This document shows, in pieces, positions 13,201-62,786 of a DNA stretch of 64,000 bases (position 1 is its first letter; each line of letters begins with the position of its first letter). The position numbers were made by a program, and so were the translations under genes. The notes beneath the pieces were generated by a model that ran no database searches, had not been told where the DNA came from, and saw nothing but the letters and a program-made list of their open reading frames with translations. The DNA comes from Pedobacter sp. Hv1 (GTDB taxonomy: Bacteria > Bacteroidota > Bacteroidia > Sphingobacteriales > Sphingobacteriaceae), in NCBI RefSeq assembly GCF_001412215.1, contig NZ_LLWP01000009.1, positions 124,001-188,000 on the forward strand, read 5' to 3'.

Positions 13201-13265
13201 CAGTTGGCAATTGTCAGTTGGTATTGCATGAGGTTAACTGTATAAATTGTTTAATAGGTTAACTG
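13201..13265 (+). repeat. Short CAGTTNN heptad trace and a duplicated AGGTTAACTG
   Basis: CAGTTGG, CAATTGT and CAGTTGG sit end to end at 13201-13221, the same heptad family as the array at 26923. Just downstream, AGGTTAACTG occurs twice (13231-13240 and 13256-13265), 25 bp apart. The element fills the gap between the O-methyltransferase and the glucosaminidase genes. Confidence 0.6.
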
Positions 13266-25696: not shown

Positions 25697-26884
25697 TTAT
25701 AAAACTCGGATCAGCAAACCTTTTAAATACTCTCCTTCTGGGAAAGATAAACGCACAGGATGATCTTCTGGTTGTGAGAACTGTCTGATCACTTGTACTT
25801 CTTTGCCTGCATCTAGTGCAGCCCAAGCAATAATCTGCTTGAAAGTTTCAATATCTACTGCTCCAGAACAAGAAAATGTTGCCAATAAACCACCACTTTC
25901 TAACAACAACAAACCTAAACGGTTCAAGTCTTTGTAGGCACGGGCAGCCCTATCTAAAGCAGAGCGAGATGGCGCATATTTAGGTGGATCTAATACCACA
26001 ATGTCAAATTTCTTACCTTCTTCTTTAAAGGCTCTCAATTGTTTGTTTACATCAGATTGGATGGCCACATGGCTTTTGGTATTAAATTGATTAAGTTCGA
26101 TATTCTGTTTCAGCGTTTCAATGGCCAAGGCAGAGCTGTCTACACTGGTTACCTCTTTTGCACCTTGTTTAAAGGCATTGAGACTAAAACCACCGCTATA
26201 ACTGAAACAATCTAAAACTGTTTTACCTTTTGCATAAGTCGCTAAAATCTGACGATTATCACGTTGGTCGCAATAAAAACCAGATTTCTGTCCTTCGGCG
26301 ATATTGATATGGTAGGTTATTCCATTTTCTTTTACTGCAATAAAGGCAGCGGGAGCTTCACCCCATAATAAACCATTTTCAGCTGTAATGCCTTCATGGG
26401 TACGGGCAGTAGCATCGCTACGGTCGAAAATCCCTTTGGGTTGTAAAACTTGCACTAAAATGTCGATAATGATCGATTTTGCTTTTTCAATACCCGTGCT
26501 TAAAATTTGCACAGAAAGAAAATCAGCATATTGATCTACGATTAAGCCGGGTAAAAAATCAGCTTCACTAAAAATCAAACGATACGCATTGGTGTCTTTG
26601 TTTTTTAAGAGATGTGCTCTTGACTCGATTGCCTTCTTGATCTTTTGTTCGTACCATGCTGCATCTATTGTTTCATTCTCATCCCACTCTAACAAACGAA
26701 CGGCTACTCGAGATTGATCATTATAGTAGCCATAAGCCAAAAAATCATTATTCGCACTGCAAACTTTTACCACATCTCCATTTGTAGGAGTTCCTTTTAC
26801 TTTTTCTAATGCACCAGAAAATACCCAAGGATGACGTTGTAAAACTGCTTTTTCTTTTCCTTTCTTTAACTTAATCTCTACCAT
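25697..26884 (-). CDS. RlmI-like 23S rRNA methyltransferase
   Basis: The 395 residues contain an N-terminal PUA domain (VEIKLKKGKEKAVLQRHPWV), a middle beta domain, and a class I methyltransferase core (VLDCFSYSGGFSLNAF, VVLDPPKYAPSR) followed by ATFSCSGAVD with a conserved cysteine. This is the RlmI/RlmK layout for m5C in 23S rRNA. The exact position modified is inferred from the family. The start lies at the edge of the heptad-containing gap. Confidence 0.9.
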   Translation of the reverse strand: MVEIKLKKGKEKAVLQRHPWVFSGALEKVKGTPTNGDVVKVCSANNDFLAYGYYNDQSRVAVRLLEWDENETIDAAWYEQKIKKAIESRAHLLKNKDTNAYRLIFSEADFLPGLIVDQYADFLSVQILSTGIEKAKSIIIDILVQVLQPKGIFDRSDATARTHEGITAENGLLWGEAPAAFIAVKENGITYHINIAEGQKSGFYCDQRDNRQILATYAKGKTVLDCFSYSGGFSLNAFKQGAKEVTSVDSSALAIETLKQNIELNQFNTKSHVAIQSDVNKQLRAFKEEGKKFDIVVLDPPKYAPSRSALDRAARAYKDLNRLGLLLLESGGLLATFSCSGAVDIETFKQIIAWAALDAGKEVQVIRQFSQPEDHPVRLSFPEGEYLKGLLIRVL

Positions 26885-26922
26885 GTTGCAAATGTAATAA
26901 AAAGGTGCTAGTGTTCAATTTT

Positions 26923-27162
26923 CAGTTGGCAGTTCACGGTTAACAGTTTTCAGTTAGCAATTGCCGGTTCACAGTTTTCAATTGACTACTTTCTCCTTTA
27001 AACTTTCCACTCTTAACTTTGAGCCTTCCGCTTTGAGCCTTGCGCTTTATGCTTTGAGCCTTGCGCTTTCGGCTTTCCGCCTTGAACTTTCAACTTTTCA
27101 CTTTCAACTTGAGCTTTCCGCCTTCCGCTTTAAGCCTTGAGCTTTTGTCTTTGAGCCTTTAC
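26923..27162 (+). repeat. Degenerate heptanucleotide tandem array, two unit types
   Basis: Nine CAGTTNN-type units (CAGTTGG, CAGTTCA, CGGTTAA and so on) run head to tail from 26923 to 26985. After a 3-bp break, about 25 CTTTNNN/CCTTNNN units (CTTTGAG, CCTTGCG, CTTTCCG) continue to 27162, with one 6-bp unit at 27108-27113. The seven-base phase is kept for nearly 240 bp although the sequence varies. The array fills the gap between the RlmI-like gene and csaA, and its last units overlap the csaA promoter. Confidence 0.88.
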
Positions 27163-27180
27163 AGTTAAATAGTACTTTTG
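27150..27180 (+). promoter_or_regulatory. csaA promoter embedded in the heptad array
   Basis: TTTG at 27150-27153, inside the last CTTTGAG unit, lies 19 bp from TACTTTTG at 27173-27180. This is the Bacteroidota -33/-7 pair at ideal spacing. The -7 box ends 4 bp before the ATG at 27185. Confidence 0.7.
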
Positions 27181-27184
27181 TTTA

Positions 27185-27520
27185 ATGGAAGAAATAAACT
27201 GGAACGATTTTGAGAAAGTAGAACTCAGGGTTGGCACAATACTCGAAGCCTTTGACTTTCCTGAAGCTAGAAAACCCGCATTTAAGGTAAAGGTAGATTT
27301 TGGCGAATTTGGCATTAAAATGAGCAGTGCACAGATTACCAAACATTATACAAAAGAAGAATTGGTAGGCAGACAGATTATTGCTGTGATCAATTTCCCC
27401 AAAAAACAGATTGGCAAATTTATGAGCGAGTTTCTGGTAACGGGTTTTGCCGATGAAAATGGCGATATTGTATTGAGTGCAATCGACAAAAAAGTGCCCA
27501 ATGGCAGTAAACTAGTTTAA
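27185..27520 (+). CDS. csaA: CsaA-like tRNA-binding protein
   Basis: The 111-residue single-domain OB-fold protein of the EMAP/CsaA tRNA-binding family (FEKVELRVGTILEAFDFPEARKPA, MSSAQITKHYTKEELVGRQI). Bacillus CsaA has chaperone activity and binds tRNA; these small proteins act as homodimers. It lies 1 bp before the start of the tadA-like gene, so a tRNA theme is shared. The gene sits immediately downstream of the heptad array. Confidence 0.92.
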   Translation: MEEINWNDFEKVELRVGTILEAFDFPEARKPAFKVKVDFGEFGIKMSSAQITKHYTKEELVGRQIIAVINFPKKQIGKFMSEFLVTGFADENGDIVLSAIDKKVPNGSKLV

Positions 27521-61043: not shown

Positions 61044-62786
61044 TTATTTCAAATTGAGTTTGGTGTCCTGTTTTAGCCTTCCAATAGGATAGCGCATATA
61101 GGTTTTTTCGTAATAGTCGGAATTTTTATAGACAAAATCTAATTGCATCCTTCCACTTTTTGCCAATTCTGGATTTTTTAATTTCTCAGCTTCCAATTTT
61201 TGTTTCAATTCTGGATCTTTTTTTAACAGCTCGGCTGCGGTATCCTCAAAAACATAAGAAGAATAACCTTCTTTTTGTCCTAGAATAGAATCGAAGAAAT
61301 TCCAGTTGAAAAACGAATCGATTGCCTGTGGTTCCAACGTTTCAACTATATAACGGTTATTTGGTTGATTTACATATACCACATAGTCGCCCGCATAAAA
61401 TTGTACGTTTTGCATTATCGGATTTAAAACTACAGCAGAGTGTTGGTAATGGCCCTCATACGGACGTGTACCAGTTTTCATATCACCAATGTAGTACATC
61501 TCTAAGTTCAGTTTCGCATCAGCACTTAATTGCTGCATTTTAACATTGTTCAACTTCAGCAGTTCAATTACCTTATCCCAAGCTTTTGGAATAACATATG
61601 CAATGGGTTTGCTTACGGTTAAACTCGGCTCAAATTGATCCCAATACTTTATTTTTTTGGTATAAGGGTCATTTCTATCATAATACAAACGATCGGTACC
61701 ACTTACTTCGCTTGGTTTCTTTTTACCAACATAACCTTTAAAGTCAATACTATCATAAACAGAGCGATTTAATTTCCAGTCTAAAGGAAATTCTTTTTGC
61801 TGTGCGGTAAACTCATCGGCCTTGCGTTTATTTTCTCCAATTACTTTGGCATCGCGAACAATAATATCAATATAGGTCTGCAATAGTTTATAGGTTGATT
61901 CTACCCGTTTATCAAATGTTTTAAGCATGTGTGTTTCGGGCATAAAACCAATGGTGTTGTGCAGGGCTGCATAACCTGTAGAATACCGTGGAGATTCGAT
62001 GTAACCTGTAATGCCAGCATCTGGTGTTTCGTTAATAGAGTTGACATAAGGGATCAGCTCATAACCTTTACCTTTCATTTGGCTATACAAATCGGGTACC
62101 ATCGTTTTAGTGAGGTAGCTTGATAAAATGGGGTTCAATTTATCCTTTTGGGTAGGAATCAATGTCATGGTGTATTGATAATCTGCTCCGTTACTGGTAT
62201 GTGTATCTACAAATATTTCTGGTTGCCAAGTGTTAAAAATTTGCTGAAAAGCCTGAGAATTTTTAGAATCGGTTTTAATGAAATCTCTATTTAAGTCGTA
62301 ATTTTTACCATTCCCTCTGAAACCATAAGCAACGGGGCCATTTTGGTTTGCCCTTGAGGTGCCACTGCGGTTATGGCTGCCATCAATGTTATATACTGGA
62401 ATGATACAGATGACCACATCTTCGGGTAGTTTATTGCCTTTGAGTAAATCTCTTGCCAACAGCATACTTGCATCTATCCCTTCAGGTTCTCCTGGGTGGA
62501 TGCCATTGTTGATCAAGAAAATCCTTTTGTTGCTCTTCCTTAAAGTGCTGGGGTCGAATACACCCTTTTTTGATAAAACCAAAAGATGTAATGGTTTTCC
62601 AAAATCGGTGTTGCCATAGGTGAATAATTTGGCCTGTTGTGGAAAAGCTTTGGCCAAACCTTCGTAATAGGTTATTGCTTCTGTATATGTGGTGGTTTCC
62701 TTTTTATTGCTACGCTCAAAAGGAGTTTGTTGTGCAAAGGATGCCATATGAATAGCTATAAGTAAAAGAAGTAAAAGTTTCTTCAT
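61044..62786 (-). CDS. Exported M14 carboxypeptidase, second in window
   Basis: The 580-residue protein has a signal peptide (MASFAQ) and an M14 zinc site: H97xxE100 in GIHPGEPEG and H196 in VDTHTSNG. NRDF near 167 and YESPRYSTGY fit the fold. It is shorter than the M14 enzyme at 419 and lacks its amidotransferase-like C-terminal region, so they are distant paralogues. The rhomboid gene follows 1 bp later. A near -7 box TAATTTTA (minus strand 62791-62798) ends 4 bp before the start. Confidence 0.9.
   Translation of the reverse strand: MKKLLLLLLIAIHMASFAQQTPFERSNKKETTTYTEAITYYEGLAKAFPQQAKLFTYGNTDFGKPLHLLVLSKKGVFDPSTLRKSNKRIFLINNGIHPGEPEGIDASMLLARDLLKGNKLPEDVVICIIPVYNIDGSHNRSGTSRANQNGPVAYGFRGNGKNYDLNRDFIKTDSKNSQAFQQIFNTWQPEIFVDTHTSNGADYQYTMTLIPTQKDKLNPILSSYLTKTMVPDLYSQMKGKGYELIPYVNSINETPDAGITGYIESPRYSTGYAALHNTIGFMPETHMLKTFDKRVESTYKLLQTYIDIIVRDAKVIGENKRKADEFTAQQKEFPLDWKLNRSVYDSIDFKGYVGKKKPSEVSGTDRLYYDRNDPYTKKIKYWDQFEPSLTVSKPIAYVIPKAWDKVIELLKLNNVKMQQLSADAKLNLEMYYIGDMKTGTRPYEGHYQHSAVVLNPIMQNVQFYAGDYVVYVNQPNNRYIVETLEPQAIDSFFNWNFFDSILGQKEGYSSYVFEDTAAELLKKDPELKQKLEAEKLKNPELAKSGRMQLDFVYKNSDYYEKTYMRYPIGRLKQDTKLNLK

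Follow-up and report, generated by a model that had tools for sequence, protein, structure and literature searches.

Background

TAACTGA heptamer direct repeats occur in Beggiatoaceae, Cyanobacteria and Bacteroidetes, and in Gramella and Aequorivita long TAACTGA arrays have other heptamers alongside, and these arrays are missing from that locus in close relatives (MacGregor, 2015; PMC4679880). In many bacteria heptanucleotide repeats outnumber every other long class, according to Mrazek (2007) in the form in which that work is cited in PMC4679880. We analysed a window of 64,000 nucleotides (the whole stretch of DNA, positions 124,001 to 188,000 of contig 9, NZ_LLWP01000009.1) from the 4.9-Mb genome of Pedobacter sp. 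Hv1, the host genome, in which an intergenic array of degenerate seven-base units (the window array) occupies the divergent gap between rlmI and csaA. This array, and the heptad arrays like it elsewhere, may be a dispersed intergenic repeat of Bacteroidia that resembles repetitive extragenic palindromes (REPs), has spread with the help of Y1 transposases or alongside them and changes by whole heptads; we hold this reading tentatively.

Cyanobacterial short tandemly repeated repetitive sequences have period seven and an intergenic placement, as heptad arrays do. The TAACTGA repeats, like heptad arrays, are composed of seven-base tandem units, are mostly intergenic and are scattered over phyla including Bacteroidetes (PMC4679880). 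The CAGTTNN unit of the window array is the reverse complement of the TAACTG core. TAACTGA itself is not the unit of the window array: ten CAGTT-type units carry the core on the opposite strand with varying tails, and the majority of the array is NNNCYTT. Heptad arrays differ further from TAACTGA repeats in their degenerate units, in several coexisting cores that switch in phase, in ordered arms and in a link to Y1 genes, and the preference of BOGUAY TAACTGA repeats for sites just before start codons (PMC4679880) was not seen for them. The long heptanucleotide simple sequence repeats of Mrazek (2007), as cited in PMC4679880, share period seven and intergenic placement with heptad arrays; searches for simple repeats seek near-identical copies, whereas heptad arrays have free tails and a vocabulary common to several loci.

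REPs, bacterial interspersed mosaic elements (BIMEs) and REP doublets forming hairpins (REPINs) are like heptad arrays in being dispersed, intergenic, hairpin-capable and uneven between species, in having inverted pairs mostly in one arrangement, and in their co-occurrence with Y1 genes (PMC3733652, PMC6006769). Unlike them, heptad arrays carry no GTAG tag, are not 20-40-bp palindromes, have arms made of tandem heptads and were not found flanking Y1 genes. Overall, the heptanucleotide repeats treated by MacGregor (PMC4679880) are the nearest known counterpart of the window array. A literature search for degenerate heptad arrays in Pedobacter or Flavobacteria found no description.

Structure of the window array

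Direct reading and column analysis delimit the window array as a degenerate seven-base array of ~240 bases at 26916-27166. Its parts, together with a short run of the same family elsewhere in the window, are as follows.

26916-26985, plus strand: ten CRRTTNN (CAGTTNN-type) heptads, first part of the array, in phase; no variation in columns 1, 4 and 5, near-random bases in columns 6-7
26986-27104, plus strand: 17 NNNCYTT heptads, second part, in the same phase as the first (direct reading, column analysis)
27105-27110, plus strand: CAACTT, a six-base unit and the sole phase break of the array (read directly)
27111-27159, plus strand: seven more NNNCYTT heptads (direct reading, column analysis)
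27160-27166, plus strand: TACAGTT, a terminal trace with CAGTT at 27162-27166 (read directly)
13201-13221, plus strand: three heptads of CAGTT type, a short run that belongs to the same family (read directly)

An earlier note on this DNA, made from the sequence alone, had described nine CAGTTNN units followed by about 25 CTTTNNN/CCTTNNN units, a 3-bp join between them and one 6-bp unit. The nine units stand in phase where it placed them, but ten are present once CAATTTT at 26916-26922 is included, besides the terminal CAGTT. The second count agrees with ours (25 units, namely 24 heptads and one of 6 bp), as does the single phase break. The 3-bp join was an artefact of the choice of unit: phase is preserved across the switch of unit type because the NNNCTTT part begins at 26986, which is 26923 + 63. 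The description of a conserved core with a variable tail was borne out, columns 4 (C) and 7 (T) of the CTTT part being invariant in 24 of 24 heptads and the tail columns, with about 0.2-0.7 bits, being near-free while the core columns are fixed.

The lag-7 identity of the window array is 0.61 versus 0.285 ± 0.028 in shuffles, the highest value among 20,000 shuffles being 0.40, and identity is likewise high (0.57-0.64) at lags 14, 21 and 28. Exact seven-base tandem units are present beyond chance, at period 7 only. The copies are not near-identical as in heptanucleotide tandem repeats, and Tandem Repeats Finder (TRF) detects the array in fragments only. Folding is little above that of shuffles (z -1.5). 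An internal duplication of 98 bp (80% over 75 bp) was set aside, since it is no more than expected from two in-phase stretches that use one vocabulary. A decayed coding remnant, which the earlier note had named as one finding that would overturn its account, is ruled out as the origin because the array sits in a gap free of open reading frames (ORFs).

Occurrence of heptad arrays and change between relatives

The earlier note had also set an excess of period 7 outside this site as a test beforehand, and such an excess is present genome-wide. In 864 kb of sampled stretches of the host genome, part of them chosen near known hits, a scan with 70-base windows and a self-match of at least 60% gave 41 windows at period 7, three at period 8 and none at periods 4-6 and 9-13; the 19 windows at period 14 are harmonics of period 7. 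A slightly lower threshold yielded 56 arrays, nearly all intergenic, with several core families (NNNCTTT, GTT-, CTATT-, ACATCTC-, GACTATT- and ATACTT-type) and frequent changes of core family in which the phase is kept. Dispersed intergenic copies within one genome, as known for REPs, are thereby found for heptad arrays. It is these scans that establish the dispersed family proposed in the earlier note; the run at 13201-13221 from which it had been proposed does contain three units but is not significant alone.

Arrays of the CTTT family (CTTTNNN) were detected in 75 of the 119 genomes of the genus, with up to 491 matches, and across the class in 121 of 295. The reversed CTTT pattern gave low counts in the genus and a period-8 control yielded mostly CTTT microsatellites; in the class scan the reversed pattern scores too in some genomes, as expected if other cores dominate there. 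Some Bacteroidia genomes have hundreds of matches and whole clades are without any. The CTATT family, with 130 matches in the host genome versus no more than 33 in each of the other genomes compared, is a lineage-specific expansion. A minor class of period-8 arrays was observed in the G000 and G085 samples (10 and 12 places), and six genomes (G013, G019, G023, G075, G082 and G132) have few or no heptad arrays, yet long pure CTTT microsatellites.

Most of 34 related rlmI-csaA loci have short heptad traces or none, L169 having a moderate CTTT run, and the long array at this locus is peculiar to the host genome. In two syntenic genomes with about 91% DNA identity some arrays are unchanged, some differ by one or two whole heptads and others are absent; arrays are therefore inherited and altered in heptad steps, with a turnover over longer periods. 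Tails do not in general evolve rapidly from one close species to the next, several orthologous arrays being identical or 1-4 bases apart with the differences spread over core and tail; in one orthologous pair the differences are confined to the tails and one 7-bp unit.

In three Mucilaginibacter-like rlmI-csaA gaps (L216, L218 and L220) heptad arms, of the CAGTTGTCGGT type on the left and the ACAACTGATAACCGACAACTG type on the right, flank extra inserted ORFs; the insert of L220 contains what we take to be a HigA-like antitoxin. The gap of Pedobacter cryotolerans (L170) has an inserted gene next to short heptads, presumably resembling an AAA ATPase of DUF4143 type.

Tail vocabulary and arm order

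The tails of the arrays are drawn from a lineage-specific vocabulary that is common to dispersed arrays and related species. Among the listed matches, a subset of all, the probability that tails match is, for four Pedobacter genomes, 0.10 inside a genome and 0.097 from one genome to another, and 0.003 against other families, with 0.016 expected by chance. Adjacent tails (lag 1) are no more alike than tails from different arrays in G001 and G009 (identity 0.19-0.22 vs 0.28-0.30); this is not general because the host genome (0.42 vs 0.35) and G085 (0.51 vs 0.30) show the opposite.

Inverted neighbours of the CTTT family within 250 bp, assigned by their cores, are always an AAAG-arm followed by a CTTT-arm (15:0), and by GC skew the arm order is 18:0 in the host genome and 23:1 over all samples. 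Among the short two-arm elements several fold into strong hairpins (z -5 to -6), and many arrays are single-armed. Ordered unit pairs recur across host loci (43 vs 20.6 ± 4.3), a recurrence not seen in a locus set from many genomes. Dispersed mosaic elements of ~500 bp, in which a common non-heptad middle, TTCACAAAATTGGGATATTTTACTAATGAAC, lies between heptad arms, were observed at L055:15500-16240, L058:7200-7720, L067:7770-8450, L070:9520-10280 and L051:18120-18700; several of them also contain a palindrome-like GTCTGAGCCTGTCGAAGAC segment.

Association with Y1 transposases

On a CsaA tree of 22 genomes the presence of arrays is clustered (2 changes vs 6.7 when shuffled), and therefore a heritable genome property is involved. 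Genes for Y1 transposases (PF01797) are present in 63 of the 68 genus genomes with arrays versus 4 of the 51 others (p = 1e-22), in tests that count genomes as independent, an independence which clades violate. For the class minus the genus the association has p = 1e-6, and p = 0.0018 when stratified by family. A reverse transcriptase, taken as a control, was ruled out as trans factor, since it shows no association (62 of 119 genomes, odds ratio 0.94, p = 1). Three of the five array genomes without a called Y1 gene have weak or broken matches, above the family cut-off in G091 and G107 and below it in G120, and a fourth, G055, is an incomplete genome with a negligible match. The host genome has two Y1 genes, with the motifs YIKNQEIHH and YIHQNP, which places a Y1 transposase (TnpA_REP) in the same genome as is the case for REPs. 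The Y1 proteins carry YI.NQE.HH or YIHQNP-type motifs and, judged by motif only, appear to resemble the Bacteroidetes-associated subclasses 1.2 and 2.6 of PMC6006769. YIHQNP-type Y1 genes at L069:2300-2900, L345 and L347 are flanked by palindromes such as GTCGAGATTTGCAATCTCGAC, which are likely the cognate repeats of this type of Y1 gene.

Several observations weigh against a spread through Y1 transposases. The association within the genus is partly a clade effect, and G116, a complete genome with arrays, has no Y1 match. None of 19 Y1 loci read has a heptad array in its immediate flanks, where other palindromes are found, and the GTAG/CTAC tag is not enriched at array edges (6.8 per kb vs a background of 6.5). 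No clean insertion with target duplication was seen in the syntenic genomes. Because the Y1 flanks contain other palindromes and GTAG is not enriched, we do not class the arrays as REPs. A causal link, a shared history or a common tolerance of intergenic repeats could each account for the association.

Proposed origin and alternative explanations

With the same reserve as above, we propose a class of dispersed REP-like Bacteroidia repeats whose heptads combine a fixed core of 4-5 bases with a free tail. The elements would arrive at fresh intergenic positions as single-stranded hairpins or as tandem strands, most likely helped in trans by a Y1 HuH transposase (TnpA_REP or IS200-like), and after arrival the arrays would grow and shrink in heptad steps. 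The core may be a recognition or annealing site. The host locus would then hold one long copy between the divergent rlmI/csaA promoters, in a gap with recurring shorter heptad traces in relatives.

A real possibility, though we doubt it, is that the arrays are plain heptanucleotide simple sequence repeats, which arise by polymerase slippage and unequal recombination in sevens and mutate between one expansion and the next; no trans factor would take part, and the Y1 link would reflect shared ancestry or repeat tolerance. The predominance of heptanucleotides among the long repeats of many bacteria (Mrazek, 2007, cited in PMC4679880), the whole-heptad differences between close species, the greater likeness of units within than between arrays in the host genome and G085, and the Y1 genes without array flanks are all consistent with this. 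Simple slippage does not predict the shared vocabulary, the adjacent tails no more alike than others (not a general feature), the single arm order or the recurring unit pairs. Adjacent units in G001 and G009 are no more alike than random ones, the same vocabulary recurs in dispersed arrays and across species, cores are fixed while tails vary, and the Y1 association extends beyond the genus and holds within families. The adjacent tails of G001 and G009 and the shared tail vocabulary also uphold the view of the earlier note that slippage of identical single units describes the array poorly. Copying from divergent templates, which it had suggested as well, is compatible with the shared vocabulary but is not demonstrated by it.

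It is improbable that the arrays are binding sites for cold-shock-domain proteins that bind single-stranded nucleic acids, in which one protein per heptad would contact the pyrimidine core and leave the tail free. Fixed core, free tail and strict phase would suit such sites, and AGTCTTT and GGTCTTT, the units most often seen in several Pedobacter genomes, match both the d(GTCTTTG/C) heptamer consensus and the B. subtilis CspB RNA ligand GUCUUUA (PMC7825780); a comparable idea has been raised for TAACTGA repeats (PMC4679880). However, units of the window array do not match the GTCTTTG/C consensus, several different cores coexist in one genome and whole clades lack arrays. In hand counts, arrays lie between convergent genes 6 times, divergent genes 8 times and co-directional genes about 28 times, and the pyrimidine strand coincides with the sense strand in 6 cases and with the antisense strand in 9, with no preference for strand or gene orientation. 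A role at the transcript level is disfavoured because of this lack of orientation bias. Selection on spacing and protein binding, both put forward in the earlier note, are not supported as a means of gene regulation: the arrays have no orientation preference, and most relatives are without a long array at the locus.

Transcription terminators or structural RNA hairpins are a very improbable explanation: the strong two-arm hairpins, and an arm order that puts T-rich arms on the 3' side, would fit a bidirectional terminator, but divergent gaps hold arrays as often as convergent ones do (8 and 6), by which an orientation-dependent role is rejected, the window array barely folds above shuffles, many arrays have a single arm and an Rfam search for a known RNA family gave no match at E ≤ 1.

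Neighbouring genes and predicted promoters

The genes and predicted promoter elements on either side of the window array are as follows.

25697-26884, minus strand: gene for an S-adenosylmethionine (SAM)-dependent methyltransferase, RlmI-like, left neighbour (ORF; orthologues beside csaA in 34 related loci)
26889-26896, minus strand: predicted rlmI -7 box TACATTTG (consensus match; TTG at 26916-26918 on the minus strand, inside the first heptad)
27173-27180, plus strand: predicted csaA -7 box TACTTTTG (consensus match; TTG at 27151-27153, 19 bases upstream and within the last heptads)
27185-27520, plus strand: gene for a CsaA-like tRNA-binding protein, right neighbour (ORF; relatives found)

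The names RlmI-like and CsaA-like are our working assumption for these genes. The CsaA-like protein is 91% identical to that of Pedobacter sp. ASV12, and the nearest named relatives of the host genome are Pedobacter. Promoters in Bacteroidota are of the -7/-33 type, and this consensus was used here. By consensus match, both predicted -7 boxes lie just outside the array and both -33 TTG boxes, at a spacing of 19, within its terminal heptads, which puts the array between the two predicted promoters and partly over them. If it has any effect on rlmI and csaA, this would be incidental, for example by providing -33 boxes. Elsewhere in the window, a 40-bp tandem repeat of about two copies with 79% match was observed at 61150-61231.

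Significance for Bacteroidia

Heptanucleotide repeats in bacteria have been noted for years without an agreed cause, and degenerate ones mostly escape tandem-repeat finders; no description of their scale in Bacteroidia was found in the literature searched. Bacteroidia might carry an unnamed class of dispersed elements that is defined by a seven-base rhythm and not by sequence, and whose spread would depend on a Y1 HuH enzyme acting on single-stranded heptad arms, the core being the recognition or annealing site and the tail free, a proposal that in this full form we regard as unlikely. What had been a loose story of slippage becomes a set of testable predictions through the link with Y1 transposases, the constant arm order and the common vocabulary.
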